Of a DNA stretch of 64,000 bases, positions 5,058 to 34,775 are shown one piece after another (the first letter of the stretch is position 1; every line of letters starts with the position of its first letter). Below the pieces are notes generated by a model, which was not told where the DNA came from, ran no database searches, and worked only from the letters and a program-made list of their open reading frames with translations. This DNA is from Methanosarcina sp. KYL-1 (lineage in GTDB: Archaea > Halobacteriota > Methanosarcinia > Methanosarcinales > Methanosarcinaceae). The stretch lies in the NCBI RefSeq assembly GCF_024372725.1, contig NZ_VOUA01000017.1:1-64000 (forward strand), read 5' to 3'. Position numbers and translations under genes: made by a program.

Positions 5058-6248
5058 TCAGGCAAAAAGCTTCCTCGCAGTCTCTTCGGCCCTGCGCATG
5101 ACCTCTTTTACCGGGACTCCGCTCTTCCTTGCAATCTGCTTGCAGTCCTCAAACTCGGCAGAGATATTGAGCAGGACACCTTCCGAGTCACGTGCAATTT
5201 TGACCGCCGTTTCAAATTCCTGCCCCTCAACCTCAAAGCTTATTATCTCTATATTCCGGGCTGCCATCAGCCTGTGCCTGGTAGGGACCACTCTTATCCC
5301 CAGAGAGCCCGTCTCAACAATTATTTTCCGGGCAAGCTTTGCACTGTCCTCAGGTTTTGCTATGACTTTGATAACATGGGCAGGCCTGCCTTTTTTCATG
5401 GTTGCAGGAATAATAGCGACATCCCTGGCTCCCATCGCAAGCAGTTCTTCAAAGAGGTTGCCCAAAACTTCCCCGCTCACATCGTCGGCATTGGTTTCAA
5501 GGACTTCGATCATGTCAGGGATCAGGCAGGAGTCAAGTTCCGAAAGTACGCCCTGGAGCACGTTCGGGCCCGGAAGGTCGGCATCCCCTGCCCCGTACCC
5601 TACTGAAGTTACCCTGCCCTGGGGAAAAGCCTCGACAGGCCTTGCAAAATGGGCAAGGACAGCTGCCCCGGTTGGAGTCAGCAGCTCTTTTTTCACGTTG
5701 CTGCCCTTAAAGTAGAGCTTGCCCCTCCTGAGAATTTCAAGGGTTGCAGGGGCAGGCACAGGGAGAGTCCCGTGGGCGGCTTCGATAGTGCCGCTGCCCA
5801 CATTGATAGGGGTGCAGTAGACTGAGTCGCAGCCCAGGGCATGGACGGCTGCCGAGGAGCCGATAACATCGGCAAGGGCGTCGCTCTGTCCCACTTCATG
5901 AAAATGAAGGTCTGCAAGGTCGCTTTTCCCGTGGACGGCAGCTTCGGCCTCAGCCATCTTCAAAAAGATGTCAAGGGCACTTGCCTCCACTTTAGGGGGC
6001 AGTTTTGCGGATTTAACCATATCCACAAGTTCCGGGTATGTACGGACCGCCTCTTTTTCGGGCACATTTATCCGGACATCCAGAGCTTTTATGCCCTTTT
6101 TTACCACTTCCCGGACTTCCATGGAGACGTCCACGGAAGCTTCCACCAGTTCCCGGACATACTCCCGGTCAGCCCCGAGGTCAAGGGCACACCCGAGGAT
6201 CATGTCCCCCGCAGCCCCCGAAAAAGGATTGAAGATCAATGCTTTCAT
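5058..6248 (-). CDS. larC: LarC, nickel insertion protein for the nickel-pincer cofactor
   Basis: LarC inserts Ni into pyridinium-3,5-bisthiocarboxylic acid mononucleotide, a CTP-dependent cyclometallase step that finishes the nickel-pincer nucleotide cofactor. The 396-residue protein has the family N-terminus (FNPFSGAAGDMILGCALDLG), the HFHEVG segment near residue 120, and a complete C-terminal domain (ETNADDVSGE...KKGRPAHVIKVIA...ETGSLGIRV). Unlike Lactobacillus, no frameshift is needed to join LarC1 and LarC2. It is the last gene of a minus-strand set, 27 bp after larB. No larA racemase or larE sulphur transferase is in the window, so the user enzyme lies elsewhere. Confidence 0.92.
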   Translation of the reverse strand: MKALIFNPFSGAAGDMILGCALDLGADREYVRELVEASVDVSMEVREVVKKGIKALDVRINVPEKEAVRTYPELVDMVKSAKLPPKVEASALDIFLKMAEAEAAVHGKSDLADLHFHEVGQSDALADVIGSSAAVHALGCDSVYCTPINVGSGTIEAAHGTLPVPAPATLEILRRGKLYFKGSNVKKELLTPTGAAVLAHFARPVEAFPQGRVTSVGYGAGDADLPGPNVLQGVLSELDSCLIPDMIEVLETNADDVSGEVLGNLFEELLAMGARDVAIIPATMKKGRPAHVIKVIAKPEDSAKLARKIIVETGSLGIRVVPTRHRLMAARNIEIISFEVEGQEFETAVKIARDSEGVLLNISAEFEDCKQIARKSGVPVKEVMRRAEETARKLFA

Positions 6249-18305: not shown

Positions 18306-18887
18306 TTGGACTTCGATACCGCTGCGAAATTTCACGGACACGTCTGTCCCGGCCTCTCGATAGGATACAGGGTGGCAACGCTTGCTGCCGACCGCTTCAA
18401 AGACCGGAGTGAAGATGAAGAACTTGTAGCCGTCGTGGAAAACAGGTCATGTTCCGTGGACGCCATCCAGGTTGTCAACGGCTGCACCTGCGGAAAAGGA
18501 AACCTTATCTTTAAGGACCACGGGAAGCACGTATACACCTTCTTCAAGAGAGGAGACAAAAAAGCCCTGAGAATTGCCCTGAGATCCGACGTCCTGCCCC
18601 AGGATGAAAGGCACACGGCTCTTTTTGCAAAACTGAGGGCGGGCACAGCAAGCCCGGAAGAAGCAAAGGAATTCAGGACCTCGCATGAAGCCAAGAGCCG
18701 AAGAGTGCTGGAGATGCCCGAAGAAGAGCTCTTCTGGATCTCGGAAGTGGAAAATGAACCCCCTGAAAAAGCAATAATCTACCCAACCCTGATCTGCAGC
18801 GAATGCGGGGAAGGTTTCATGGAACCCCTCGGCAGGGTGAAGAACGGAAAAATAGTCTGCATCCCCTGCTTTGAAGCAATAAAATGA
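18306..18887 (+). CDS. FmdE-family protein with C-terminal zinc ribbon
   Basis: This 193-residue protein is of the family named for subunit E of molybdenum formylmethanofuran dehydrogenase. It is not a core catalytic subunit and its role is unclear. The hallmark FHGHVCPGLSIGYR is at residues 8-21, with Cys and His likely binding a metal, and a second Cys motif is DAIQVVNGCTCGKGNL (about 53-68). The C-terminal treble-clef or zinc ribbon is CSECGEGF...CIPCFEAIK. The TTG start at 18306 is supported by AGGAG eight bases upstream. The stop overlaps a possible upstream start of the next gene, so the two are cotranscribed. Confidence 0.9.
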   Translation: MDFDTAAKFHGHVCPGLSIGYRVATLAADRFKDRSEDEELVAVVENRSCSVDAIQVVNGCTCGKGNLIFKDHGKHVYTFFKRGDKKALRIALRSDVLPQDERHTALFAKLRAGTASPEEAKEFRTSHEAKSRRVLEMPEEELFWISEVENEPPEKAIIYPTLICSECGEGFMEPLGRVKNGKIVCIPCFEAIK

Positions 18888-18901
18888 GGCAGGGTAGAGA
18901 A

Positions 18902-19318
18902 ATGGATGAAAAAGACCCTGAAACCATAGAATTTGTCCCGATAGGCTACGTGGAAAACGACTATACTGAACCGGCATATGACGAAAAAGTCTACCAGAAG
19001 GTTTCAAAGATTGTCCTCAGGGAAGAACTGACAGCGGGGCTTTACAGGATAGAAGATTTCGAAAAACTGTACATCATCTTTAATTTCAGCAAATCAAAAG
19101 GTTACGAACTTGTACAGCGCCGCCGCTACGACGGGAAGGTCTCAGGCGTCTTTGCATGCAGGAGCCCACACCGCCCCAACGGGATCGGCCTGACCCTGGT
19201 CGAGCTTTTTAAGGTTGAGGACAACGTCCTCCACGTAAAGGGCCTGGACGCAATAAACGGGACCCCGGTCCTGGACATAAAACCTTACATAAAAGAAATA
19301 GAAGAAGGCACGGACTGA
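18902..19318 (+). CDS. trmO: TrmO/TsaA-family tRNA methyltransferase (m6t6A37)
   Basis: Family members N6-methylate t6A37 of tRNA-Thr using S-adenosylmethionine with an unusual beta-barrel fold. Read from the ATG at 18902 the protein has 138 residues. Hallmarks are IGYVENDY, the FEKLYIIFNF strand, VFACRSPHRPNGIGLTLVEL (the TsaA signature with the SPxRPNxIG motif) and LDAINGTPVLDIKPYI. An in-frame ATG at 18884 overlaps the TGA of the FmdE-like gene (ATGA) and would add six residues. I prefer 18902, which has GGCAGGG upstream. It ends in a convergent gap before the CobN-like gene. Confidence 0.88.
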   Translation: MDEKDPETIEFVPIGYVENDYTEPAYDEKVYQKVSKIVLREELTAGLYRIEDFEKLYIIFNFSKSKGYELVQRRRYDGKVSGVFACRSPHRPNGIGLTLVELFKVEDNVLHVKGLDAINGTPVLDIKPYIKEIEEGTD

Positions 19319-19463: not shown

Positions 19464-22400
19464 TTACATTTTCTTCTTCCGCATCCCCAGGTAAATTCCG
19501 CCGGCTGCGACCAGTACGAAGAGGGTTCCTACAATGTCGGCGCCTGAGAAGGATATGCCTCCTTCATCCTCATTTTCTACAGACTCTTTTGTCATCTCAT
19601 AGCCTTCCACATAATTCGAGTCAGCAGATTTCGGGACAGCGGGTGCAGGTTCAGGGGAATCAACCCCATACCCGGCATCACTCTGGACAAGGGTCTGGTT
19701 GCTGCCCTCTGCACTCCGGACCACCGGAGTAGAACTACCTTTATTTCCGCTGCTGCTGTGTTTTTCAGGTTTATCTTGCTCAAGCTGCTGCTTTGTAGCC
19801 GCTTCGATTGCATCGCTGAAACCGGGCACAGAGACAAGGCCTGCAACATAGCTGTTGAGGGTCGGGTTTCCGCAGGTGTGGTGGCAGCAGGTGACCCCAT
19901 CGTTCACAACGGATTCTGCATATTCCGCAGCCAGGCTTTTGAGGACTTCATCCGAGGCGTCCCAGTTGCCCTTGAGTGCAGTCTCCAGCATCCGTGCAGT
20001 TATGGCCTGGTAGGCATAGGGATTGCTGTCCTTGAGCCAGTCGCTGAGTTCCTGGTCACCGACATAGGTCTGGTACACCCGGTTCCAGACATCGTCGCTG
20101 ATGAGGTCAGGGTTTACGGCTTCCCAGCCCCAGAGGTTTTCAAGGAAATCCGCCATCTCGGCTGCCCCTGCATACCCGTTTTGCTGCATCCCCTCAATCC
20201 AGGTTGGGTTGAAGTACCTGGCATACAGTTCTTTTTCAAGGAAAGAACCGAGGGTTTCCACCATTTCACTGCCAGGTTCCCGGAGATTGAAGATAAAGGA
20301 TTCGGGATACTCCCCCCCGGATGCGTACTTTACGGCAAGGTTCAGGCCTCCGAGGTACTGGAAAAACTCGTCGGTGTCCAGGACACCGTAGGTATTCGAA
20401 CTCCGGCTGTGCAGGGTGACCTCAACATCCCTGAGGTTGTCTGTGAAGAAGGCTTCATTTTCAAGCTCTTCACATCCCGTAAAATCTGCAAGGCTTTCGC
20501 CCCAGATGTATTCGCCGTAAGCATTGCTCATCTTGCTGATGTAAAGTTCGGCAAGCTCATCCGTATCGTTCCAGGTGTTGCTTGCAGAAACCACATTGCT
20601 CATGCCTGTACCGTATGCCCCGTCTGCAGGCCCGAAAATTCTGAGAGTTGCAACCTGCCAGGAAAGGGTCTCGTTTTGCAGGGTCTTGTTCAGTTCGGAA
20701 GCAAGGGTTTTCGTGTTTTCAAGGACATAGTTGGGGTATTCCTCAGTGCCCGGAAACTCGGACCCGTCACATACAGTCCTCACCGCATAATCGATCAACC
20801 GAATGTTGTTCGGGTAAGTGTCCCTGTACAGCCCCGAAATCTGGACCATGACGTCAATACGCGGCCTTCCGAGCTCTTCGTCCGGAATGAAGACCAGGTC
20901 GTCGTAGCTGTCAAAGTCCTCGTCCTCATCTTCAAAGTCCGGTTTGACCCCTAGTAGGTAGAGGATCTGGGCTTCCATGACACCCTCATTGCGGGTAGTC
21001 TCCCCTGCCCAGAGGACATAAGCAACCTTTTGCGGATAGCTGCCGTTGTGGCTTTCCCGGTACTGCCCGAGCATCTCATCAGCCATCTCGGTCCCGAGTA
21101 TCCAGGCTTCTTCGGAGGGAATTTCTTCAGGGTCAAAGGAGTAGAAGTTCCGGCCCGAAGGCAGGGTATCCGGGTCCCTTACAGGGTCTCCCCCGGCATT
21201 CGGTTCGATAAACCTGCCGTCAAGGGCTTTTAAGACCTGGTTGATTTCGTCCTTGCCCCCGGCAAGCAGGGCCGCATATGCACCGGCTGTTTCAAGGTCT
21301 GCAGTAAGGGTTGAGTTCTCGCCGCAGTTCAGCACAAATGCCTGGGCCCCTGCAGGGCTGCTGCCCTGCAGAAGGACACATTCAAGAAGGGCGAATTCGG
21401 CCTCATCGGAATTATTGTATCCGGAAAGAGCCGGGTCAAAGCAGAACTCGACGTGGGCTTCAAAAGGCTGTCCGAGCATGGAGTTTACCATCCCGACCAG
21501 TTCGTCTCCTTCAGGGGACGTCCCGAGAACATGCAGGCCGTAGGGCATGGCGGTGCTTTTGAGTTCTTCGAGAATGTCTCCGAGCTCGTCCAGGAAAATA
21601 TCCTCAAAGACCTGGTCATCTTCGGCAAGGCTCATGTTCAATTGTTCATCCAGGCCCAGTTCTTCGGTAAGGTTCAGGATTTCTGCCTTATGCATCTCCA
21701 CTATTTCTTCTTCCATGCCCATATCCACGGAATTCGTGTACTCAAGGACGGCTTTGTCAAGCTCTGCGTATTTCCCGTAAAGCCCTGCTTCGAGGACCGG
21801 CGGTATGAGATGGTCAATAACGACGGCATTTCCCCTGCGCTTGGCCTGGATTCCTTCCCCGAGCCCGTCCATTACGTACGGGTAAATTACGGGAATATCG
21901 CCGTTCATCAGGGCCGGCCAGTCCTCGCAGGAGAGGAAGAACTGTTTTCCGGGCAGCCATTCCACGGTCCCATGCCTGCCCATGTTCACCATGGCATCAG
22001 CCCCGTATTCATTTTGGAGCCAGAGGTAAAAGGCGATGTACTGGTGATGGGGAGGCAGGTCTTTGGAATGGTAGAGGGCATCATTGTCCTGCAGCCAGCC
22101 CCTGGTAGGCTGGGGAGCAAGGATCACTCCGTCTCCGACTTCGATTTTCGGGATTACGAGGAATTTCCCACTCTCGTTTTCATAGACCATAATCTGCCCG
22201 GGAGCTTCACCCCACTGGGAAATTACTTCCCGCTGCCGCTCTTCAGGCAGGGCTTCGAACCACTCACTGTAAGTAGAATTGGGAATAAGGGCAACGTCCC
22301 CTTCATCAACCAGCCGGTCAAGCTCCCCCGGAGCCCAGGTCCCTATATTCGTGCCCTGCACCAGCATAAGGTCCGTGAGCTCGCTCCCGTTCGGGATGCT

Positions 22401-24710
22401 GGCAGAGTCCACGGCATAACCCGCATCAGCCATTCCCTCAAGGAGATTGCAGATGCTCGGGGCAACATCAAGGTAAGAAGCTCCTATCCCGTCCTTTCCG
22501 CAGCCGTGGTTGTAATAGATAATCGCAACCTTCTTTTCGGCTTCCGGGGTCCTTTCCGGGGAAAGCTCGACCTGGGCCAGGGTGCGGTTTACGAGCCACT
22601 CAACCTGCCCGGGAACGGAAACGTAGATTTCTTCCTCGGTTTCAGGATCAAGATCGATAGTAGAAATCATGATAGGGTCAATGAACCCGTACCATTCAGG
22701 CCTGTAGATCCTCATCATGCTGTCAGCCGGAAGAGGGCTGCTGCTTTCGTTCCATTCCGTGTAGTTCAGGTAACCGTTCAGGACTCCGTTGATAAGGGGG
22801 ATGTCCAGCCCTTCGGTGTCAAAATAGTTCCCACGGTACGTAAAGGAGATGAGGGCGTCCACGTATGTCTCGGTCTCGTTTCTTATGAAGGGGTCACAGG
22901 GATTGGAGGAATCCCCGTAGAAAGTAAGCACGTTAACGCCCCTGGACTCAAACTCCCGGATGAGGGTATCAAAAGGCTCTATCCTGTTAGGGTAGTAAGA
23001 GACATAAAAAGCCATTCCGATGGTAGGGGCGCTTGCATTGTAACGGTGCCCGCCGTCCTCCCGGTTTGCATACCAGGCAAGGTATTCCTCGTAACTTTCG
23101 GCAAAATAAAGCTGTGAGCCGTTAACAAAGTCAGGATGATAGATCGCTCTTGCAGGAGGGCCTATGGGAGCTTCCGCGTTCAGGTCCTCTCTCCCGTAAT
23201 ATTCATTTGCAAGGTAGAAAACCATATAATCCAGGTTCCGGTCATCGGCAGCCAGGTTCGCCCAGTAACCCTGGAGATAGGCTTTCAGTGCAGCTTCATC
23301 TTCAAGCCCTGAGGGGACATAAGGGATATTATCAGGCAGTGTCGTTGTCTGGCCTATGACCACCGCACCGTTTGCAATTGCCTCTGCAATATCATCCTGC
23401 AGCACGTCAGCACTTTGCGTGAACATATTGATGTAAATAATATCCATGCTGCCGAAATCGATCTCATTGTGGCTTTCCAGGTTATTGGGCGTAAAATAAC
23501 TGACAGTGAGGTTCAGGTCACTGTTACTGTTAAGCCTGTTTACCGCAGTCTCAAGCTGGAAGTCGTACCTGTACCCCGTGATAATCGAGACGTTCAGGTG
23601 AGGGCTGTTTGAGAGGTCTGTATACTTTTCTTTTAAAAGCACGACCGTAGCGTTACCTTTTGAGGTACCCTTCGTAGTAACGGTGTAACCGGAAAGAGAA
23701 GACCTGTTAAGGTAGCCCAGTACATCAGCAGGTTCAACAAGACTCTCGGAACTGATGGTAATATTTACGTCACTCAAATCGCTGCCGTTTAAAACAGCAT
23801 CTCCATCGCCTGTGTACCACTGCCATGTTTTGTACATTGAAGAATAGGAATAACAGGCAGAAAGCAGCGCATATTCACCGTTGGGAAGGTCTTCGAAGAA
23901 ATAGTGACCTTCGGAATTGCTGGTGGTATTTGCCATTAATTTCCCGGAACCGTCCGTAAGGACAACGGTAGCATTAGCTTTGGGGGTGCCCTTTGTAGTA
24001 ACGGTGTAACCGGAAAGAGAAGACCTGTTAAGGTAACTCAGTACATCAGCAGGTTCAACAAGACTCTCGGAACTGATGGTAATATTTACGTCACTCAAAT
24101 CGCTGCCGTCTACAAAGGCATCTCCATCGCCTGTGTACCACTGCCAGGTTTTGTACATTGAAGAATAGGAATAACAGGCAGAAAGCAGCGCATATTCACC
24201 GTTGGGAAGGTCTTCGAAGAAATAGTGACCTTCGGAATCGCTGGTGGTATTTGCCATTAATTTCCCGGAACCATCCGTAAGGACAACGGTAGCATTAGCT
24301 TTGGGGGTACCCTTTGTAGTAACGGTGTAACCGGAAAGAGAAGACCTGTTCAGGTAACCCAGTACATCAGCAGGCTCAACAAGACTCTCGGAACTGATGG
24401 TAATATTTACGTCACTCAAATCGCTGCCGTTTACAACAGCATCTCCATCGCCTGTGTACCACTGCCATGTTTTGTACATTGAAGAATAGGAATAACAGGC
24501 AGAAAGCAGCGCATATTCACCGTCGGGAAGGTCTTCGAAGAAATAATAACCTTCGGGATCACTGGTGGTATTTGCAACAAGTTCATACTGAACACCTTCA
24601 CTTCCGGATGCGGGAGCCGAAACCAGAAGCAAAAGCAGTAAAAATACCAATCCAAAAACTTTAGCTTTTTGTGCAGGGTTTTTTAGTACCTCATTTCGAA
24701 TTCTTTTCAT
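19464..24710 (-). CDS. Secreted, membrane-anchored CobN-like chelatase with three N-terminal repeat modules
   Basis: CobN is normally the cytoplasmic large subunit of aerobic cobaltochelatase. This 1748-residue version has a signal peptide (FGLVFLLLLLLVSAPASGSE, about 19-38) and a C-terminal anchor (GADIVGTLFVLVAAGGIYLGMRKKKM). It should therefore sit outside the membrane, away from ATP and from CobS/CobT-type ATPases. Residues about 46-366 are three near-identical 107-residue modules (YFFEDLPNGEYALLSACYSY...) resembling CarboxypepD_reg/Cna-B folds. The CobN core follows with its signatures MGRHGTVEWLPGK and AVVIDHLIPP. A conserved GVTCCHHTCGNP motif precedes a Ser-rich stalk. The ATG has GAGGAGA upstream. 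It is a paralogue of the gene at 25248. It may bind or modify corrinoids, haem or F430-like tetrapyrroles at the surface; this is inference. Confidence 0.88.
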   Translation of the reverse strand: MKRIRNEVLKNPAQKAKVFGLVFLLLLLLVSAPASGSEGVQYELVANTTSDPEGYYFFEDLPDGEYALLSACYSYSSMYKTWQWYTGDGDAVVNGSDLSDVNITISSESLVEPADVLGYLNRSSLSGYTVTTKGTPKANATVVLTDGSGKLMANTTSDSEGHYFFEDLPNGEYALLSACYSYSSMYKTWQWYTGDGDAFVDGSDLSDVNITISSESLVEPADVLSYLNRSSLSGYTVTTKGTPKANATVVLTDGSGKLMANTTSNSEGHYFFEDLPNGEYALLSACYSYSSMYKTWQWYTGDGDAVLNGSDLSDVNITISSESLVEPADVLGYLNRSSLSGYTVTTKGTSKGNATVVLLKEKYTDLSNSPHLNVSIITGYRYDFQLETAVNRLNSNSDLNLTVSYFTPNNLESHNEIDFGSMDIIYINMFTQSADVLQDDIAEAIANGAVVIGQTTTLPDNIPYVPSGLEDEAALKAYLQGYWANLAADDRNLDYMVFYLANEYYGREDLNAEAPIGPPARAIYHPDFVNGSQLYFAESYEEYLAWYANREDGGHRYNASAPTIGMAFYVSYYPNRIEPFDTLIREFESRGVNVLTFYGDSSNPCDPFIRNETETYVDALISFTYRGNYFDTEGLDIPLINGVLNGYLNYTEWNESSSPLPADSMMRIYRPEWYGFIDPIMISTIDLDPETEEEIYVSVPGQVEWLVNRTLAQVELSPERTPEAEKKVAIIYYNHGCGKDGIGASYLDVAPSICNLLEGMADAGYAVDSASIPNGSELTDLMLVQGTNIGTWAPGELDRLVDEGDVALIPNSTYSEWFEALPEERQREVISQWGEAPGQIMVYENESGKFLVIPKIEVGDGVILAPQPTRGWLQDNDALYHSKDLPPHHQYIAFYLWLQNEYGADAMVNMGRHGTVEWLPGKQFFLSCEDWPALMNGDIPVIYPYVMDGLGEGIQAKRRGNAVVIDHLIPPVLEAGLYGKYAELDKAVLEYTNSVDMGMEEEIVEMHKAEILNLTEELGLDEQLNMSLAEDDQVFEDIFLDELGDILEELKSTAMPYGLHVLGTSPEGDELVGMVNSMLGQPFEAHVEFCFDPALSGYNNSDEAEFALLECVLLQGSSPAGAQAFVLNCGENSTLTADLETAGAYAALLAGGKDEINQVLKALDGRFIEPNAGGDPVRDPDTLPSGRNFYSFDPEEIPSEEAWILGTEMADEMLGQYRESHNGSYPQKVAYVLWAGETTRNEGVMEAQILYLLGVKPDFEDEDEDFDSYDDLVFIPDEELGRPRIDVMVQISGLYRDTYPNNIRLIDYAVRTVCDGSEFPGTEEYPNYVLENTKTLASELNKTLQNETLSWQVATLRIFGPADGAYGTGMSNVVSASNTWNDTDELAELYISKMSNAYGEYIWGESLADFTGCEELENEAFFTDNLRDVEVTLHSRSSNTYGVLDTDEFFQYLGGLNLAVKYASGGEYPESFIFNLREPGSEMVETLGSFLEKELYARYFNPTWIEGMQQNGYAGAAEMADFLENLWGWEAVNPDLISDDVWNRVYQTYVGDQELSDWLKDSNPYAYQAITARMLETALKGNWDASDEVLKSLAAEYAESVVNDGVTCCHHTCGNPTLNSYVAGLVSVPGFSDAIEAATKQQLEQDKPEKHSSSGNKGSSTPVVRSAEGSNQTLVQSDAGYGVDSPEPAPAVPKSADSNYVEGYEMTKESVENEDEGGISFSGADIVGTLFVLVAAGGIYLGMRKKKM
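23613..24575 (-). repeat. Three 321-bp in-frame direct repeats in the CobN-like gene
   Basis: The segment encoding the 107-residue module is repeated three times at a 321-bp pitch (for instance the GGTGGTATTTGCCATTAATT stretch recurs 321 bp later near 23925 and 24246). Identity is very high at the DNA level, which indicates recent expansion or ongoing gene conversion. Confidence 0.92.
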
Positions 24711-25059
24711 TGTATCTCCTCATGAAAAATTGGTTATGTAAGTCCTGGTGTGGGCTGGAACACCATGCTCGGGATTGCAAAGAGACGGTATCCAAAAAAC
24801 TAAACTGCCTTCCGTATGAGATCCGGAGAGGGAGCACAGCAGGGAAATACAGTTTCGTACGGACACGTTTCCTGGGGCTGAACGCAAGTTTACTTTCAAA
24901 AAGCCAAACGAATGCCTGAAGAGGTCAACCAGTAAATTATTGATACATTAACCATTAAGAATGTCTCGTTTTTTTGTGACAGTAGATCCCACCTTTTCCA
25001 GTCAACAGTCTCCACTTAGGGAACAACTCAAGTTGAGTTGATTTGTCATATAATCCCTA
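24711..25059 (-). promoter_or_regulatory. Long 5' leader and TATA region of the CobN-like gene at 19464
   Basis: No gene is seen in this gap. On the minus strand a TATA-like GGATTATATGAC (about 25045-25056) lies just downstream of the conserved element at 25060. That would give a leader of about 300 nt. I looked for cobalamin-riboswitch boxes here and saw none. Confidence 0.45.
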
Positions 25060-25103
25060 TTTTTTGGGTAATGTTCATTAGCCAAAAAGGTAACAATGGT
25101 AAC
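25060..25103 (-). promoter_or_regulatory. Conserved upstream element, copy 1 (shared by both CobN-like genes)
   Basis: Plus-strand TTTTTTGGGTAATGTTCATT, then AGCCAAAAAGGTAACAATGGTAAC in two parts, aligns with 30866-30905 upstream of the second CobN-like gene. Shared words are TTTTTGG.TAA, ATTAGC and AGGTAACA.TGGT, in the same order and spacing. In both cases the block lies directly upstream of a TATA-like sequence on the minus strand. A common regulator is the simplest reading. The remaining bases to 25247 hold the 3' flank of the next gene and nothing recognisable. Confidence 0.65.
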
Positions 25104-25247
25104 AAAAAGACAAAACACATGGAAAAAATAGCTCCGAGGTATAGAAAAATCCTTTAAATGAAAAATAATACGCACTTAACCATAAAAAGAGAAGAAGAAA
25201 AGAATTTGAGAGCACTGAAAAAATAATGCCCTCAGCCTATCAAAATC

Positions 25248-28200
25248 TCAAAGCTTCTTTTTCCTGAACCCGAGATAGATTCCTCCCAGACAGGCCAAAA
25301 CGAACAACGCACCCACAATGTCAGCACCCGAGAAAGACATTGAACTTCCTCCCTCGGAACCATCGACAGCTTCTTTCTGCATCTCGTAGCCTTCCACATA
25401 AGGATCGGCTTTAGAGGATGAAGAGCTTTCCGGAGCATCCGGGGTGTCGGTACCATATCCGGCATCGGTTTCCTTAGCAGTGGTCTTGTTCGCACTCATT
25501 ACTACCGGAGTAGAACTGCCCCTGTTACCGCTACTGCTTCTCTTACTGGGAGAGGAAGTAGAGGTACTCGCCGGGGAATCGGTCGCTTCGGTAATCTTTT
25601 TGTTATATGCGTCCTGAAGCTCCTGACTGACGCCCGCAACAGACATCATACCTTTCACGTACTCATCAAGCAGGGGGTTTCCACAGGTGTGGTGGCAGCA
25701 GGTGACTCCGTCCTCTACCACGGACTTTACGTACTCATTGATAAGGGCATTGAGAATCTCCTCATCTGCGCCCCAGTACTTTTCACCATTTGCATTTTCC
25801 TTGCGGGTGGTCTCAAGCATCCTGGCCGTGATTGACTGGTAGGCGTGAGGACAGTTTTCCTTGAACCACTCTTTCATATCCGGATCGTTTATGTAGGTGT
25901 CGTAGACCATTTCCCAGGTGCTGTCGTCCACAAGGTCAGGATCGCAGACTTCCCAGCCCCAGAGGTTGTTGACGAACTCTGACATCATCCAGCCTCCGGC
26001 GTAGCCGGATTCCTTCATGCCATTAATCCACTCTTCATTCAGGTACCTGGACCGGAGGTTTGTGTTAAAGTACTCGTCCAAAGAAACCATACCGCAGCCT
26101 CCGGCTTCCCGATCCCGTGTGTCCGAGACATACATATCCGGAGTCTTGCCTGAGAGATACCTGGTAGCCAGGTTCATTCCCCCGAAATACTGGAAGAAAT
26201 CATCATTATCAAGGGTGTCATAGAGATTGGAGGAATCCGAATGAACGGAAGCATCTACTGTCTTCAGGTTGCCTTCCAGCAGGTCCCGGCAGCTGATGCC
26301 CCAGAAGTCCTCTCCGTAGGCATAGCCCATTTTGTCAAGGTAAACATTTGCAATATCTTCCTCATTGTCCCAGGTCCCGCTGGCCCCGATAGCATTGGAA
26401 ACTCCTATTTCATAAGTTCCGTCCCTGACAGCAAAACAGCGCATAGTGGACAGTTTTCTTGCAGTTTCACTGTCATAGGTCCCATTCAGGGCTTCATAAA
26501 TCGCCTGGGAATTTTCATAAACATAGTTTGTGTAGTCCCCCTCTGTCGCATTATTTGCAAGCTTGACAGCTCCGTCTATCATCTTGATTTTGTCAGGGAA
26601 AGCGTCCCGAATGCCCGCAGTCGCATAGACAATGTCGATCCTGGGCCTTCCAACCGCTGTCATGTTGTCCTGAAGCGATTTCGGAAGCAGGGCGTACATC
26701 TCGGAATCGCTCATGACGTTGGCCTCAGTAAGCTTCTTGACTTTTCCATTTTCATCCCACTCAGGTTTTATCCCCAGCAGATAAAGGATCTCTGCCTCGA
26801 CCGTGCCTTCGTCCCTGATAAACTCCACCCCGAACCTGGAGAAAGAGACCTTGGACGGGAATGTCCCATTATGGTTGTTGTAATAATCCACGAGCAGGGT
26901 ATTCGTAAGGTTTACCGCAAGGTTCCAGGCAGCTTCCGAAGGGTAAAGTTCGGGGTCCACAGAGTAGAAATTCCGGCCCGTGGGTACGGAATCGGGGTTC
27001 AATACGGGGTCCCTGCCAGGGCCCGGAGGAATAAAACCGGCCTCAAGAGCGGATAATACCATGTCCATTTCCTGTGCGGACGCTGCAAGGCTGTCCCTGT
27101 ATTCGAGTCCGGCTTCAAGTTCGGAGTTCACCGAACTGTCATTATAACCGAAAACAAGGTCCTGGGCATCCACGGGTGTGGTATTGTTGCTTACAAGTTC
27201 CCAGACCATCCAGTCCACCTTCCGGTCATCTGCGGGCATGCCGAGCGGATACTCCGGCCCGGAATAGAAAACCGTAACGGCTTCTTCAAAGGAGCTTCCG
27301 AGCATTGACCTGACCATAAGGGACATCTCATCCCGGTAGAGGTCCAGGATTTCGTCCCTGTAGAGAAGGCCTTTTTTGAGGTCCAGGGTTACCGAACTGT
27401 TCTTGGAACCGTAAACAAGGTCCTGAGCCTGAATAGGTTTCGTACAGTTGACGACAACTTCCCAGACCAGAGTGTCCGGTCTCCCGTCATCTGCAGGAAT
27501 TCCGGAGGGGTACTCCGTGACGTTTGAGTAGAAAGCCCCCGTAAGGTTATCCAGGTAAGAAGGCCCGAGCATTTTCATAAGGGTTGAGTTCATTTCCCCG
27601 GGTTTCATTTCGGGGAGGGAAGCCCTGTAAGTAAGCCCGGCTTCGAGGTCCGGGGTTACGGAACTGGAATTGGAGCCGAAAATAATGTCCTGGGCATTTA
27701 CAGGATTTGTATCGTTAACAATGACCTCACTGAGGAGGGCATCGATTTTTCCACTGGCTTCGGGGCCAAAGGTCTCAGTTACGTTTGTCTCAAAGGACTC
27801 ACCCATTATTTTCCGGATAAGCGAACAGAGAGAGTTTCTCTGCACCTCAATATCCCTGACTTCAGGGTTTTCTCCCAGCACATGCATGCCGTAAGGGATG
27901 TTTTCTTCCGAAATATCTTCAAGGTATTCGTGCAGTTCATTTTTGAGGAAAACCTCGAAAAGCGTCTGGTTGCTCTTCAATTCCTCAAGTTCGCTTTCAC
28001 TGACATCCAGATCCACATCAAGGTTGAGTTCGACCATCTCGGAGATTATGCTCTGCCAGTAGCTTTTCCTGAGTTCATCCGTAATCCCTGGCTTATAATA
28101 GCTCTGGATGTCGCTTTCGAGTTTCCCCAGCTTCCCGTGGAGCCCACCCCTCTCCAGGGTAGGAGTCAGGTGGTCGATTATAAGGGCATTTCCCCTGTAT

Positions 28201-30599
28201 TCCGCTGTCAGGCCTTCTCCCACATTAGCTACAATATAGGGGTAAATATTGGGAAGGTCCTGAAGCAGGAGGGGGGCCCAGTCTCCTGTCCGGTTCATCC
28301 CGTATGCAGAGCCTGGCAGCCATTCATGAGTCCCGTGGGTCCCCACATGGACGAGAGCATCAGGCTGCCATTCATTATTTTTGTTCAACCAGAGGTAAAA
28401 GGCAATATACTGGTGCGTAGGGGGCAGGATGCTGCTGTGGTACATTGCATTTTCGTTTTGCATGAAGCCTCTTGAAGGCTGGGGCATGAGCCAGATATTC
28501 CCGTAGCGGACTGTGGGAATTACAACATACCTCCCGGTTTCGTTTTCCCAGATCATTGGGCTTTTTTCCGGGTCAAGGTCCCCTTCCCATGGAGTTCCCC
28601 ACTCCTCAAGCACGGAGTCCCTGAGCTCCTGCGGAAGCTCGGACTCAAACCACTGCCTGTATGTTTCCACGGGCAAAAACACCATGTCCCCGCTTTCAAT
28701 GCCGGCTTCGACCAGCACTTTAAGCTCTCCGGGAGCCCAGCTCCCAACATTCCTTCCGTGGCTCTGGATTCTGTCCAGCAGTTCGGTTGCATTTTCAGGC
28801 AGGTCCCGGACAGTATAATCTTTATCGCTTTCCATCCGCACAAGCAGGTCCTGCATGCTCTGCACGGTGTTGAGGTAACTGGCTCCAATGTTGTCCTTTC
28901 CCGGCGGGTAGTTATAATAGATTAATGCGACATTTTTATCCTGATTTCCCTTCAACTTCAGTTCGGCCCAGTTAATCGAACGGTTTACTATCCAGTTGAT
29001 CTGTGAAGGAATTGCCCTGGGGTGGGACACCCCGGTTTCATCCTTGACATTCCTGGCTATATAAATATATTCAAAAATCCCGTCCCTGTCAGGCCCGAGG
29101 GTCTCACGGCTCACAGCCGAAGAGGGGATACCCCTGTTGGCATCTGACGCTACGTCAGATTCCGTAACAGCGATGGCCTTTAAAACAGGCACATTGAGGA
29201 GCTTCAGCTGGTTAATTCCGTATTCATATGCACTTGGCGTCCTGGAATTGTTCTGGCAGAGCCCAAAGGACTTATATGAAATCATACATTGGACGAGGGG
29301 TGTGCCGTTTGCATCACAGTAGAAGTCCTGCACATCGTCAAAGGTATCAAAACCCGCAATTACATTGCAACCTTTGCTTTCAATGTCTCCTATAAGGGCA
29401 TCAACAGGTTCAAGGTTCCCTTCCCCTATAAAGTCCCTGTGGAACCATATCCCGATCGTCGGTTTGTTGCGGTCGTAGACCCGGTGCCCCTCGGAAGCTG
29501 TGGAATACCATTCAAGGTATTCCTGCAGGTTACTAAAATACCTGACATCGGACCCATTATGATATATTCCCATTGAAGGAATTGTTACAGAAGAGCCCCC
29601 GGTCAGTTCCCACCCATCTGTAAGTTCGGTATTGTTGCCATATTCCTTTGAAAGATAAATCAGCAGTTTTTCAGCATTTTCAAGCAGATGATACTCTTTC
29701 CCCATATTTTCAAAATAATTACTGAACGTACTGTTATCTTTACTATCGTAATAATAGTCAAGGTAGTCCTTATGAAGATCAGAACGGAAGGAGATGAAGG
29801 TCGTGCCGGAAGCATGGGCATTTGAAAATACGCCGTCAACTTTGGAATAAATCCCATCGGAGAACATGTCGCAGATTATGACGTCCTGGCTTTCCAGAAA
29901 CCCGGAGTCACGGGCAGCGAGAAGTTCGGGACTTGCATCTTCGAAACTGGAGTCGTAAGCAGGAAGGAAACTGTATGATATAAACTCACTATACTGGTTT
30001 GTGAGGCTGGCGGTATCAAGCCCTTCATTTGGAAAACCGATGTATGTAATATTTATTGTGGGCCAGGCATCAGTGATTTCAGGACAACTGGCATAGTCCC
30101 TTGCAAGATGCACCAGCAGTTTTTCAGCATTTCTTAGTTGTGGGTATTCTTTTCCCATATTGTTAAAATAATAACAGAAAGTGACGTTCTTTTCCTCTCC
30201 CCCATAATAATAGTCAAGGTAGTCCTTATGAAGATCCGAACGGAAGGAAATGAAAGTCGTACCGGAAGCATGGGCATTTGAAAATACGCTGTCAACTTCG
30301 GAATAAATCCCGGCGGAAAGCATGTCGCAGATTATGACGTCCTGGCTTTCCAGAAGCCCGGAGTCACGGGCAGTGAGAAGTTCGGGACTCACTGTTGTAA
30401 AACTGGGATCGTAGCCGGGAAGATAAGTATAATTTATAGAGTCATTATACTGGTTTGTGATGCTGGCGGCAGCCAGGGCTTCATTTGAAAAACCTATATA
30501 CATTATATCTACATGATTTTCGTCAGCCGATACGTTAGGTGCAAGGAGCAAAAGAAGCACTGCACTTAAAACCAATAACCTGCATTTTATACTGTGCAT
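25248..30599 (-). CDS. Secreted, membrane-anchored CobN-like chelatase (second copy)
   Basis: Read from the ATG at 30597-30599, which has GGGGAT upstream and starts the signal peptide MHSIKCRLLVLSAVLLLLLA, the protein has 1783 residues. A 26-codon extension is open upstream but lacks a signal at its own N-terminus. Two 152-residue tandem modules (DIMYIGFSNEALAAASITNQ..., DVIICDM, HKDYLDYYY) come first. The CobN core follows, with GTHGTHEWLPG and ALIIDHLTP, and inside it are three copies of a roughly 95-residue unit (AQDLVFGYNDSSV type). After GVTCCHHTCGNP come a Ser/Thr-rich stalk and the anchor SFSGADIVGALFVLACLGGIYLGFRKKKL. The last 130 residues closely match the copy at 19464. Surface location seems certain; the substrate is unknown. 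Confidence 0.88.
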   Translation of the reverse strand: MHSIKCRLLVLSAVLLLLLAPNVSADENHVDIMYIGFSNEALAAASITNQYNDSINYTYLPGYDPSFTTVSPELLTARDSGLLESQDVIICDMLSAGIYSEVDSVFSNAHASGTTFISFRSDLHKDYLDYYYGGEEKNVTFCYYFNNMGKEYPQLRNAEKLLVHLARDYASCPEITDAWPTINITYIGFPNEGLDTASLTNQYSEFISYSFLPAYDSSFEDASPELLAARDSGFLESQDVIICDMFSDGIYSKVDGVFSNAHASGTTFISFRSDLHKDYLDYYYDSKDNSTFSNYFENMGKEYHLLENAEKLLIYLSKEYGNNTELTDGWELTGGSSVTIPSMGIYHNGSDVRYFSNLQEYLEWYSTASEGHRVYDRNKPTIGIWFHRDFIGEGNLEPVDALIGDIESKGCNVIAGFDTFDDVQDFYCDANGTPLVQCMISYKSFGLCQNNSRTPSAYEYGINQLKLLNVPVLKAIAVTESDVASDANRGIPSSAVSRETLGPDRDGIFEYIYIARNVKDETGVSHPRAIPSQINWIVNRSINWAELKLKGNQDKNVALIYYNYPPGKDNIGASYLNTVQSMQDLLVRMESDKDYTVRDLPENATELLDRIQSHGRNVGSWAPGELKVLVEAGIESGDMVFLPVETYRQWFESELPQELRDSVLEEWGTPWEGDLDPEKSPMIWENETGRYVVIPTVRYGNIWLMPQPSRGFMQNENAMYHSSILPPTHQYIAFYLWLNKNNEWQPDALVHVGTHGTHEWLPGSAYGMNRTGDWAPLLLQDLPNIYPYIVANVGEGLTAEYRGNALIIDHLTPTLERGGLHGKLGKLESDIQSYYKPGITDELRKSYWQSIISEMVELNLDVDLDVSESELEELKSNQTLFEVFLKNELHEYLEDISEENIPYGMHVLGENPEVRDIEVQRNSLCSLIRKIMGESFETNVTETFGPEASGKIDALLSEVIVNDTNPVNAQDIIFGSNSSSVTPDLEAGLTYRASLPEMKPGEMNSTLMKMLGPSYLDNLTGAFYSNVTEYPSGIPADDGRPDTLVWEVVVNCTKPIQAQDLVYGSKNSSVTLDLKKGLLYRDEILDLYRDEMSLMVRSMLGSSFEEAVTVFYSGPEYPLGMPADDRKVDWMVWELVSNNTTPVDAQDLVFGYNDSSVNSELEAGLEYRDSLAASAQEMDMVLSALEAGFIPPGPGRDPVLNPDSVPTGRNFYSVDPELYPSEAAWNLAVNLTNTLLVDYYNNHNGTFPSKVSFSRFGVEFIRDEGTVEAEILYLLGIKPEWDENGKVKKLTEANVMSDSEMYALLPKSLQDNMTAVGRPRIDIVYATAGIRDAFPDKIKMIDGAVKLANNATEGDYTNYVYENSQAIYEALNGTYDSETARKLSTMRCFAVRDGTYEIGVSNAIGASGTWDNEEDIANVYLDKMGYAYGEDFWGISCRDLLEGNLKTVDASVHSDSSNLYDTLDNDDFFQYFGGMNLATRYLSGKTPDMYVSDTRDREAGGCGMVSLDEYFNTNLRSRYLNEEWINGMKESGYAGGWMMSEFVNNLWGWEVCDPDLVDDSTWEMVYDTYINDPDMKEWFKENCPHAYQSITARMLETTRKENANGEKYWGADEEILNALINEYVKSVVEDGVTCCHHTCGNPLLDEYVKGMMSVAGVSQELQDAYNKKITEATDSPASTSTSSPSKRSSSGNRGSSTPVVMSANKTTAKETDAGYGTDTPDAPESSSSSKADPYVEGYEMQKEAVDGSEGGSSMSFSGADIVGALFVLACLGGIYLGFRKKKL
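29640..30540 (-). repeat. Two 456-bp in-frame direct repeats at the 5' end of the second CobN-like gene
   Basis: The AGGTAGTCCTTATGAAGATC stretch at about 29761 recurs at about 30217, and flanking sequence matches on both sides at the same 456-bp offset. The repeats encode the two 152-residue N-terminal modules. Edges are approximate. Confidence 0.85.
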
Positions 30600-30865
30600 G
30601 ATATCCCCACAACGTGTTGTTACATCCCGGATCACCAATGAAGAGAAATTGCCAGGATGCCGGAAACACAAGTTCATTTTCTTTTAGAATCAAAGTAAGT
30701 TGTACTGGATGTTACAAAGAAATCCGGACAGCCAAGTTGAAAAATGAAGCTGTAAGTTCTCATTCTGCATTCAATATCCAAATCCAGAAACACTAACTAA
30801 CCAAAGCCGATATCGCGGAAATGCAATACTCACGAGCTGTTAGGAGATAAAATACATAAAACACG
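30600..30865 (-). promoter_or_regulatory. 5' leader of the CobN-like gene at 25248
   Basis: No separate gene is seen. On the minus strand a TATA-like TGTTTTATGTATTTTAT lies at about 30846-30862, next to the conserved element, predicting a leader of about 230 nt. The upstream flank (30906-31045) includes the inverted repeat CACCAA-N7-TTGGTG (about 30988-31006). Confidence 0.45.
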
Positions 30866-31885: not shown

Positions 31886-33721
31886 TCACCTCAACCTCCC
31901 AAAGATGCTCTCAAAATAACTCCAGATGCCTCCCATGTTTCCTTCAGAATCCTCGATTTTCATGTATTTGTTTGATGCCGATACGTTCCCATTTGTGGCT
32001 TCCCAGGTCTTGAAGGCTTCATCTGCAGCCTGGCCCCCTCCTCTGGCGGAGATCGTGTCGTTACCTGTGTATATGCCGTAGTAGCACCAGGTGGCGATAC
32101 CGTTTTCGTCGGTCAGGCTTGTGCCCGAGGTCCCAACATGGGGGCCGTCGGTTACGACGAAGGTGATCATTTCTCCGGACACCGGGCTTCCGTTCTCATT
32201 GAGGAGTGTGGCTTTCATTATATGTGAGGTCCCGATTTCGTTGGTCGCTGACCGGGGTTCCACTGTTAGCAGGGTCTGGGCTTCTGCCCCTATTTCCCAG
32301 GTCTTGGAAACCGCATTTGAGGTTTCCCCGCCGCCCGTTGCAACTATGGTATCTGTGCCGGTAGTTATCCCGTAGGACCAGGTGGCAGTCCCGTTGGCAT
32401 CGGTTACGCCCTTGCCTGAAAGCCCTGCAAACGGCCCCTCGCTTACATTGAAAGTTATCGTCTCATTGGCTACGGGTGTCCCGTTTTCATCTACCAGGTT
32501 AGCTCTCAATATGTGAAGGTTCCCGAGTATGTTCGTGGCAGATTCGGGTTCGAGGGTCAGCAGGGGCTTTTGCCCCTGGTCGCTTTCCCAGGTCTTGAAA
32601 GCCTCGTTTGAGGTTTCCCCGCCGCCCGTTGCAACTATGGTATCGGTTCCGGAGTTTTCTCCTGTGTAATTCCAGGTGGCAGTCCCGTTTGCGTCGGTTA
32701 CATCCGTGCCTGAAGTCCCGTTATGGGGCCCGGCTGTTACGTTGAAGGTTATGTTCTCCCCTTCAACCGGAGTTTCGTTTTCATCTACCAGGGTAGCTGT
32801 CAATGTATGAAGTTCGCTGACCTTGTTTGTGGCAGATGCCGGTTCGAGAAGCAGTTTCGGTGAGACAAAACTCTCAGCCCTGATGATCACATTGGAGTCC
32901 AGTGCCCTGTCTCCTGCGTCAGCGATAGCCATTCTTATATGGTTTATCTCTCCGGGGGTTACATTGGCCGTAGCAGTCAGGACCACTGTCAAACCGTCCA
33001 TTTCGGTATCAATTGACCCTCCCCCATCATTCAGGTCGTTGTTTATGTAATACTCCGGATTACTGGAATTCGTACCGAAAGGATTCCCGTTGTTGACATT
33101 GTTTATGGATACCGGCGTGCTAGTTCCCGGAATTAAAGCTATGTTCTCCCCGTTGACAAAGAATCCGAATACATCGTTATATTCCGAATTGACCCATTCG
33201 TTATATTCATCGGAGCTGAAAACGTATTCAAACTGTACAATTTCCGTATCCGGAACAAAATCAAATTCAAGAACTGCAGCATCAAAGGTTGTGAAGCCCG
33301 GGATCAAAGCATTGAGGTCCGTGTCTCCAGGCAGGCCGTTGTCAGCTGTTACGTTATCAAACTCATTGGGGCCCACTACATTTGTAATATTCCCGGTGCT
33401 CAGGATGATGCCGTTTCCAAAGCCTATGATTTCTTCTCCTCCGCTAAATGTTCCGGCTGCTACATTTGCCCCGGTAAATGTAACGTTAGAAACAGTAACT
33501 CCTTCCCCAAGTAGAGTATTCACAAGATCTGAAGAAGTCAACCCCGAATTCAGGTCTGCGGTCTCGATTCCGGGAGAACCGATCTGGTAGGTTATTTTGC
33601 TGGCTCCACCGCGAGATATACTTGTGATTTCTTCTCCGTATGTCAGGCTTACAGTTAATACCGTTAAGATTGTCAGGATAATGACAACTATTGCTGGTGT
33701 TATTACTCTTCTTTTTTCCAT
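31886..33721 (-). CDS. Secreted surface protein: choice-of-anchor L domain plus three Ig-like (Big_1) domains
   Basis: The start is set at the ATG at 33719-33721 (MEKRRVITPAIVVIILTILT), with GAGGGGGA upstream, giving 611 residues; the frame is open 13 codons further. A signal peptide or anchor helix (residues about 7-27) is followed by a choice-of-anchor L domain: TEIVQFEYVFSSDEYNEW, DVFGFFVNGENIALI and IDTEMDGLTVVLTATANVTPGEINHIRMAIADAGD. Three tandem Big_1 domains of about 95 residues each repeat LTLEPESATN...ETITFNVTAGP...GTSGTDVTDANGTATW...GTDTIVATGGG. No C-terminal membrane segment is evident. It is likely an adhesin-like cell-surface protein. It stands alone between mobile elements. Confidence 0.85.
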   Translation of the reverse strand: MEKRRVITPAIVVIILTILTVLTVSLTYGEEITSISRGGASKITYQIGSPGIETADLNSGLTSSDLVNTLLGEGVTVSNVTFTGANVAAGTFSGGEEIIGFGNGIILSTGNITNVVGPNEFDNVTADNGLPGDTDLNALIPGFTTFDAAVLEFDFVPDTEIVQFEYVFSSDEYNEWVNSEYNDVFGFFVNGENIALIPGTSTPVSINNVNNGNPFGTNSSNPEYYINNDLNDGGGSIDTEMDGLTVVLTATANVTPGEINHIRMAIADAGDRALDSNVIIRAESFVSPKLLLEPASATNKVSELHTLTATLVDENETPVEGENITFNVTAGPHNGTSGTDVTDANGTATWNYTGENSGTDTIVATGGGETSNEAFKTWESDQGQKPLLTLEPESATNILGNLHILRANLVDENGTPVANETITFNVSEGPFAGLSGKGVTDANGTATWSYGITTGTDTIVATGGGETSNAVSKTWEIGAEAQTLLTVEPRSATNEIGTSHIMKATLLNENGSPVSGEMITFVVTDGPHVGTSGTSLTDENGIATWCYYGIYTGNDTISARGGGQAADEAFKTWEATNGNVSASNKYMKIEDSEGNMGGIWSYFESIFGRLR

Positions 33722-34039
33722 ATATTTCCCCCTCTGCCGGGCATATGATGCATTTACCACACTATCTTGCCGGTAAACTCCCCTCTCGGATTTTTCAAAG
33801 TGTGGTTTATGTTATGGATTCTTATTCTGGATTTTCTGTTTTGAATATTATTTATCTCTTAAAAATAAATGCTATTTTTATATATATCCACAGGGATTAT
33901 TTATTCTGAAAAATGATTCTTTTTTGGCTTGCATCTCCTGTATTCCTGCTGAATCTCGTATGAAACACGTAAGAGCCTTACTCCTGCAGGTAAAGGACAA
34001 ACAAAAAAACGGTTTACAGGACTGTTCCATGAAGTATAT
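33722..34039. promoter_or_regulatory. AT-rich upstream region of the surface-protein gene
   Basis: I see no gene. A TATA-like stretch on the minus strand lies in the AT-rich block at about 33840-33890 (plus strand TTTTTATATATATCC). Confidence 0.4.
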
Positions 34040-34579: not shown

Positions 34580-34775
34580 TGGGGCTGGTGAGATTCGAAC
34601 TCACGATCGACGGGTATCTCCGAACAACTGCCTTAGCAGCTTTAGTTCTGGTGAGCATCTATCAGTGCTCCAACGGTTCGTCACTGTCCTGCCCCGTCGG
34701 GCAAAACTCGGTAGACCCGTTGTTCATCATTTATCCGCTGGAGCCCATCGCCATGCCGGGCTAGGCCACAGCCCC
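34580..34775 (-). tRNA. tRNA-Trp (CCA) with a 122-nt intron
   Basis: On the minus strand the acceptor GGGGCTG (34775-34769) pairs with CAGCCCC, with discriminator A at 34580. The anticodon loop is CTCCAGA once joined, with anticodon CCA. The anticodon stem ATGGG/CCCGT pairs only after intron removal. The T arm is GTGAG-TTCGAAT-CTCAC. The 5' exon ends at 34738 and the 3' exon begins at 34615, so the intron is at the canonical 37/38 site. CCA is not encoded. A TATA box (CTATATAAAAG) lies about 25-35 bp upstream of the 5' end. Confidence 0.95.
34616..34737 (-). ncRNA. tRNA-Trp intron with box C/D guide RNA motifs
   Basis: The intron contains box C ATGATGA (34730-34724), a D'-like CCGA (34711-34708), a C'-like TGACGA (34683-34678) and box D CTGA (34665-34662), in the correct order and spacing. 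In Euryarchaeota the tRNA-Trp intron acts as a box C/D RNA that guides 2'-O-methylation of tRNA-Trp itself. The box order here fits that role. I did not fully align the guide segments to the tRNA. Confidence 0.8.

Follow-up and report, generated by a model that had tools for sequence, protein, structure and literature searches.

In Bacteroidota, the HmuS and BtuS proteins are anchored in the membrane, lie outside the cytoplasm and do not depend on ATP (PMC12583661, PMC6460266). When purified, HmuS takes the iron out of haem with NADH, needing neither ATP nor an ExbB partner, and haem is held at the junction of its head and neck (PMC12583661). The hmuTUV genes of Bacteroidota encode the same ExbB-type (HmuU) and DUF2149 (HmuV) proteins as those that accompany the archaeal genes described here, and papers credit HmuU and HmuV with powering the TonB receptor HmuR. 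In Methanosarcina barkeri, the copies MSBRM_0518 and MSBRM_1640 were already named BtuS in a 2024 paper, and the BtuS proteins of this species were higher in Fe(II)/Cys- and FeS2-grown cells than in Fe(II)/sulfide-grown cells (PMC10846266), a pattern that fits any metal-limited setting. The use that archaea make of HmuS homologues has been called unclear (PMC12583661); the partner genes reported below give a testable answer. The initial annotation of this DNA saw a paradox in CobN-like proteins outside the cell and suggested a new kind of chelatase, a view that is superseded because HmuS and BtuS of the same clade already have that location and independence of ATP. Extracytoplasmic CobN-like proteins are already known, and what is new is, first, the ExbB/DUF2149 partner in cells that lack TonB, second, the CCHHTC signature and, third, the association with cobalt genes.

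The window (the whole stretch of 64,000 nucleotides that was analysed) holds two giant CobN-like genes in tandem on the minus strand, as first annotated, and both ORFs are intact. Protein A (positions 19464–24710; 1748 residues) is a surface CobN-like chelatase of the NCBIfam NF004645 family, and protein B (25248–30599) is a second one, with 1783 residues if translation starts at the ATG of position 30599; the ORF at its longest begins at 30677. The PF02514 model of the CobN/Mg-chelatase core is covered end to end in both, with 1046 bits in A (residues 487–1589; 19944–23252) and 932 bits in B (residues 332–1640; 25758–29684) against a cut-off of 24.5, and matches of this length and strength rule out chance. 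In A, the hydrophobic core of a signal peptide (residues 12–40; 24591–24677) is followed by three CarboxypepD_reg-like β-sandwich repeats of about 107 residues (residues 38–363; 23622–24599; PF13620, E = 1.5e-23), with repeat markers at residues 78, 185 and 292, and by a chelatase head domain (residues 365–500; 23211–23618). In B, the signal peptide (30519–30599), with its signal-peptide-like segment placed at residues 26–53 by hydropathy, leads into two copies of the head domain, copy 1 at residues 53–197 (30087–30521) and copy 2 at residues 208–352 (29622–30056), which are 70% identical. The 145-residue module of the B type occurs singly at residues 25–172 in paralogues of 1449 residues and in up to four copies in others.

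An AlphaFold model of residues 41–520 of B (pLDDT 82) matches ChlH, CobN and HmuS (Foldseek E values of 5e-12 to 1e-8), and an hhalign comparison links the head of A to that of B (E = 7.5e-7, probability 92%). On these model and profile matches, the extra N-terminal modules are best described as duplicated or decorated head domains. The N-terminal modules had initially been thought unrelated to each other; this does not hold for the heads, one in A and two in B, which are homologous, and stands for the three β-sandwich repeats, which are additional in A. The HmuS haem ligands at the head/neck junction, Met79 and His254, lie in a region for which A and B were compared by fold match only. Inside its core B carries three copies of a unit of about 88 residues (residues 991–1194; 27096–27707) that is absent from A; HmuS has a methionine-rich insertion in domain IV, where B has this insertion-like triplication.

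Several neighbouring genes were identified in the window. An FmdE-like protein with a zinc ribbon (18306–18887, plus strand; PF02663) and a TrmO-like protein (18884–19318, plus strand; PF01980) recur beside A-type genes, the former at loci L047 and L049 and the latter at these and at L041 and L044. A choice-of-anchor L/bacterial Ig-like surface protein is encoded directly upstream of B (31886–33760, minus strand), and a tRNA gene with the C/D box RNA sR3 in its intron is at 34580–34775 (minus strand). Within about 18 kb of the chelatase genes, positions 1705–2769 and 5058–6248 encode a GTPase of the CobW type (COG0523), a metal chaperone, and a LarC-like protein for nickel insertion.

Export signals and anchors were called from hydropathy and from counts of N-glycosylation sequons. 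Both proteins end in a hydrophobic anchor (19479–19562 in A, 25263–25343 in B) followed by KKK, and they contain 34 (A) and 32 (B) sequons as compared with one in the cytoplasmic CobN paralogue of the same genome. The same difference separates the two groups of archaeal sequences as a whole, with 19 sequons per 1000 residues in 60 surface proteins and 1.7 in 32 cytoplasmic ones. The sequences thus bear out the signal peptides and C-terminal anchors of the initial annotation, and both proteins are predicted to be extracytoplasmic and anchored at the C terminus. The genome (4.04 Mb) has four PF02514 genes, namely A, B, a surface type of 1515 residues on contig C2 and a cytoplasmic type of 1286 residues on contig C11 that adjoins a ChlI/VWA gene. 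Surface CobN genes are multiplied, reaching ten copies in one genome.

In a tree of 70 sequences, in which HmuS was entered only as the alignment segments printed for its PDB entry, all 43 archaeal surface proteins grouped with HmuS and all 23 cytoplasmic proteins with CobN and ChlH (FastTree support 0.996–0.997). The same split was obtained with IQ-TREE (topology alone), and it holds with support of 0.999 when eight exported bacterial proteins are added. By sequence, A and B are assigned to the extracytoplasmic BtuS/HmuS clade of class-I chelatases, apart from cytoplasmic CobN and ChlH. The family NF004645, which is named "cobaltochelatase subunit CobN" and which A matches with 2276 bits (cut-off 1619), is this surface family. 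The database name, which is that of the biosynthetic protein, is therefore misleading.

The genes that precede surface CobN genes encode DUF2162 (PF09930), which is usual but not constant, an ExbB-type protein (PF01618) and DUF2149 (PF09919). An AAA+/VWA gene lies within 8 kb of 18 of the 24 cytoplasmic archaeal CobN genes and of none of the 45 surface CobN genes, in agreement with the earlier view that CobS and CobT are not available as partners. The DUF2162-ExbB-DUF2149 adjacency at 30 of the 45 surface genes is partly circular, as many of these loci were chosen through DUF2149, and the unbiased evidence is the co-occurrence across whole genomes, in counts that ignore shared ancestry: of 31 Methanosarcina genomes, 24 have DUF2149 together with surface CobN and the other 7 have neither (p = 3.8e-7), and among 247 Halobacteriota genomes CobN is present in 78 of the 80 with DUF2149 as compared with 75 of the 167 without it (p = 2.5e-18). 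In the Methanosarcina genomes a surface CobN gene is no more than 10 kb away from 25 of the 26 DUF2149 genes. The window itself has no DUF2162, ExbB or DUF2149 gene and no CbiMNQO or B12-binding neighbour, so that the link is in trans here and in cis only in relatives; the sole MotA/ExbB gene of this genome is on contig C2, beside the third surface CobN. At locus L055, a DUF2162-ExbB-DUF2149 set is followed directly by B-like and A-like genes, which indicates that A and B are part of the ExbB/DUF2149 system even though no such set accompanies them in the window.

The first matches of the ExbB profile are the solved structures of ExbB and TolQ (E about 6e-5). In the single membrane helix of DUF2149 an invariant Asp occupies the position at which ExbD has its proton-carrying residue, also an Asp, and the DUF2149 profile gave no ExbD match. 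TonB was found in none of the 31 Methanosarcina genomes, and TonB receptors in none save one incomplete assembly. With no TonB, and with the only ExbB gene located beside a surface CobN, the ExbB/DUF2149 pair cannot be a TonB energizer here. Moreover, Trichlorobacter lovleyi has in one cluster an ExbB/DUF2149 pair and then a separate, canonical ExbB-ExbD-TonB set. The retention of the pair with the chelatase in TonB-less archaea and the presence of both sets in T. lovleyi argue against a general role of HmuU/HmuV as an energizer of TonB receptors, and call into question the model in which it energizes HmuR. We infer, with somewhat better than even confidence, that the chelatase is the target of the ExbB/DUF2149 motor.

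The first position of the gene set varies, being occupied by DUF2162 in archaea and T. lovleyi, by the unrelated HmuT in Bacteroidota and by a NicO/UreH-like permease in Runella, as would be expected of a metal-specific importer. Of two identities considered for DUF2162, HmuT was rejected, since the DUF2162 profile misses the HmuT of B. finegoldii and of Aureibacter; a CcdA-like electron carrier, suggested by conserved Cys residues in helices 1 and 4, gained no support from an AlphaFold model (pLDDT 81), which has no significant PDB match. ExbB-DUF2149 pairs, mostly without DUF2162, also adjoin other giant exported proteins of up to 3038 residues with no CobN nearby (loci L109, L110, L113, L116, L120 and L121), and surface machines of more than one kind may be powered by proton motors in archaea. 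A second, partial DUF2149 (a frame of 69 residues) at 167948–168106 of contig C4 of this genome (G000), with no ExbB or CobN found nearby, is probably a remnant.

The CobN signatures noted initially are intact in both proteins, with IDHLIP in A and IDHLTP in B. Alignment with HmuS (PDB 9d26) shows that His506, the catalytic His538, Glu542 and Glu577 are all retained in A and B, the equivalent of His538 being in GRHGTVEWLPG of A (21948–21980) and GTHGTHEWLPG of B (28311–28343); the GxHGxxEWLPG motif is thus kept, which answers the initial proposal to check the catalytic residues. His538 and the two conserved Glu residues are retained in 56–60 of 60 surface members (the His itself in 56). The opposing ligand, His1209 of HmuS, is replaced by Glu in A and by Asp in B and in 52 of 60 surface proteins, and at the position of Glu1212 both proteins have Gln, a residue found in 44 of the 60. 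The LSLDHxxEFMGG sequence that defines HmuS is absent from the alignment in A, which reads LDTDEFFQYLGG (20346–20381), and in B, which reads LDNDDFFQYFGG (26178–26213). Mycobacterial and other CobN proteins carry the same Asp/Gln pair as B; among bacterial relatives, the hmu proteins of Bacteroidota have His/Glu and the T. lovleyi copy in a B12 cluster has LDNDDFFQY, as in B.

These substitutions bear on the possibility that A and B are haem dechelatases like HmuS, stripping Fe(II) from external or endogenous haem for import by FeoB. HmuS is their best match among solved structures (476 and 388 bits) and shares their clade and the ExbB/DUF2149 partners. However, LSLDHxxEFMGG is retained in true haem operons, the loss of His1209 and Glu1212 in A and B sets them apart from these, DUF2162 is not homologous to HmuT, and no haem genes were seen nearby, so that we regard a haem substrate as unlikely.

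A GxTCCHHTCGN signature towards the C-terminal end of the core (CCHHTCGNP at 19863–19889 in A and 25674–25700 in B) is present in 59 of 60 surface proteins and in none of 32 cytoplasmic archaeal proteins; at this site T. lovleyi has CCDHTC, Runella CGHTTC and HmuS CSGFVC. The signature matches the catalytic His in conservation (59 as compared with 56 of 60) and persists where the His is lost, and it may serve in metal relay. The surface protein at L097:3488–8251 and three similar paralogues have lost the catalytic His motif (for example, FSIFSNICLMPGK) and kept CCHHTC, and these four are probable non-catalytic members, in some of which binding alone may suffice. In a separate observation, cytoplasmic methanogen CobN proteins (such as that of locus L001, on contig C11 of this genome) have GCCCYFG, with three consecutive Cys residues, in 22 of 32 sequences at the site of Asp-Asp in CobN and Asp-His in HmuS, and a different metal or redox chemistry is possible for them.

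Paralogues that lack the catalytic His are also what would be seen if A and B were receptors at the cell surface with no catalytic activity, capturing corrinoids or metal chelates for delivery to an importer, with ExbB/DUF2149 driving release as TonB does for its receptors. The proteins are large, modular and multiplied and have duplicated heads and surface repeats, and head domains also occur as stand-alone secreted proteins. The conservation of His538 and two Glu residues in 56–60 of 60 members goes beyond the need of a binder, however, and the homologue HmuS is catalytic; we consider a pure receptor improbable. The surface handling of tetrapyrroles or metals that was first suggested remains the likely function, judged from the retained catalytic His and its motif.

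In Methanosarcina, the neighbours of surface CobN genes include a gene for a secreted protein whose B12-binding domain (E = 9e-24) has GDSHTFG, a fit to DxHxxG, and a divergent CbiM-CbiN-CbiQ-CbiO set. CbiM is 1.3–1.6 kb from a full-length surface CobN in three genomes (G005, G026 and G030), of which the last two have A-type genes. Such cobalt/B12 neighbours are confined to a minority of the Methanosarcina genomes, partly through shared ancestry. Secreted B12-binding-domain proteins with DxHxxG are at L043:19375–19926, L202:12813–13367, L203:7054–7653 and L204:200–679, where they adjoin surface CobN or CbiMNQO genes, and by their sequences would be extracytoplasmic corrinoid-binding proteins in an archaeon. 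Secreted proteins of about 190–220 residues that consist of a signal peptide and one chelatase head (L203:575–1231, L205:4230–4805, L206:11158–11811 and L209:4790–5365) adjoin NosD-like and secreted B12-binding genes, and are either free tetrapyrrole shuttles or truncated remnants. No cobalamin riboswitch was found near the A and B genes with Rfam models at gathering scores.

The Asp/Gln active site, together with the B12-binding and CbiMNQO neighbours, favours corrinoid cobalt over haem; as the actual substrate of A and B we give corrinoid cobalt an even chance. By analogy with HmuS, metal removal is the probable direction of the reaction rather than insertion. The metal may vary between members, as the neighbours of bacterial relatives suggest nickel in Runella and Azospirillum and haem in Bacteroidota. 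Nickel from external F430 or other nickel tetrapyrroles could accordingly be what A and B handle in place of cobalt: hyp genes and one for a NicO/UreH-like permease surround the relative in Runella, the one in Azospirillum is near nikR, methanogens have a high demand for nickel, and the LarC-like and CobW-type genes are in the window. The importer beside the Methanosarcina genes nevertheless includes CbiN, as cobalt importers do, and a B12-binding domain is present in the secreted partner, which makes nickel a distinctly unlikely choice. That A and B are ordinary subunits of a B12-synthesis cobaltochelatase inside the cell with CobS/CobT-like ATPases, as the NCBIfam name would have it, is scarcely credible, CobNST-type biosynthetic enzymes being ruled out by location (signal peptides, anchors and sequons), by the separate clade and by partners, with an AAA+ neighbour in 0 of 45 cases and a separate cytoplasmic CobN beside ChlI/VWA in the genome.

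Our preferred reading is that A and B, as extracytoplasmic members of the BtuS/HmuS clade, act as surface (de)chelatases coupled to the proton-motive force through ExbB/DUF2149 and most likely remove cobalt from corrinoids, a composite on which we judge the chances evenly balanced. A and B would face the cell exterior and receive a metallated tetrapyrrole in the head/neck region and central cleft. Metal exchange would be carried out by the conserved His of GxHG and the opposing Asp/Glu, most likely to take cobalt off corrinoids for salvage. The AAA+ ATPase of cytoplasmic CobN/ChlH would be replaced by a proton-motive-force unit of the ExbB-type channel and the ExbD-like DUF2149, encoded on contig C2 beside the third surface chelatase, and the ion, once freed, would travel through the CCHHTC site at the C terminus to CbiMNQO and/or DUF2162 as importer. 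Because purified HmuS is active alone, a motor is not strictly required for dechelation in vitro, and it may serve to load the substrate, release the product or move the head instead of driving the chemistry. We tentatively extend this to a second power mode for class-I chelatases, in which the proton-driven ExbB/DUF2149 pair works directly on the chelatase outside the cell, HmuU/HmuV serve the dechelatase and not the TonB receptor, and Methanosarcina mines cobalt from external corrinoids. If this is true, class-I chelatases are of two energy types, ATP-driven inside and proton-driven outside, methanogens can draw metals from tetrapyrroles shed by other cells, and a widespread "cobaltochelatase subunit CobN" annotation error in methanogen genomes is corrected.

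Among known systems, HmuS of Bacteroides thetaiotaomicron (PDB 9d26; PMC12583661) is like A and B in being extracytoplasmic, membrane-anchored, of one clade and in possession of His538 and Glu542/Glu577, and its ExbB-like and DUF2149 partners are like the archaeal ones. In contrast to HmuS, A and B have Asp/Glu and Gln in place of the second axial His and its Glu, the CCHHTC signature and extra head or β-sandwich modules, and the archaeal setting has no TonB receptor or outer membrane and has DUF2162 in place of HmuT. BtuS1 and BtuS2 of Bacteroides fragilis (PMC6460266) and BtuS of M. barkeri (PMC10846266), the latter from the same genus as A and B and likened to them by description, not by sequence, are predicted to be exported and membrane-attached and are not tied to B12 synthesis; the papers on them point to haem iron, whereas for A and B the evidence leans towards cobalt/corrinoid and towards a motor partner. 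Cobaltochelatase CobNST (PDB 7c6o, 9uk9) has a homologous core, GxHGxxEWLPG and an acidic-acidic...Gln (DD..Q) active-site segment, but is cytoplasmic, ATP-dependent with AAA+ CobS/CobT and of a separate clade. The T. lovleyi CobN of plasmid pGLOV01/pSZ77 (PMC3403914) resembles the archaeal type in its export, the DUF2162-ExbB-DUF2149-CobN gene order, LDNDDFFQY as in B and CCDHTC, although the organism is Gram-negative and has TonB receptors and its own canonical ExbB-ExbD-TonB set. The archaeal motor pair shares with the ExbBD, TolQR and MotAB stators the ExbB-type signature PMLGLMGT...TTVxGL and a partner with one membrane helix and an invariant Asp; unlike these it occurs where TonB, TolA and a flagellum are lacking, and its proposed load is the chelatase.
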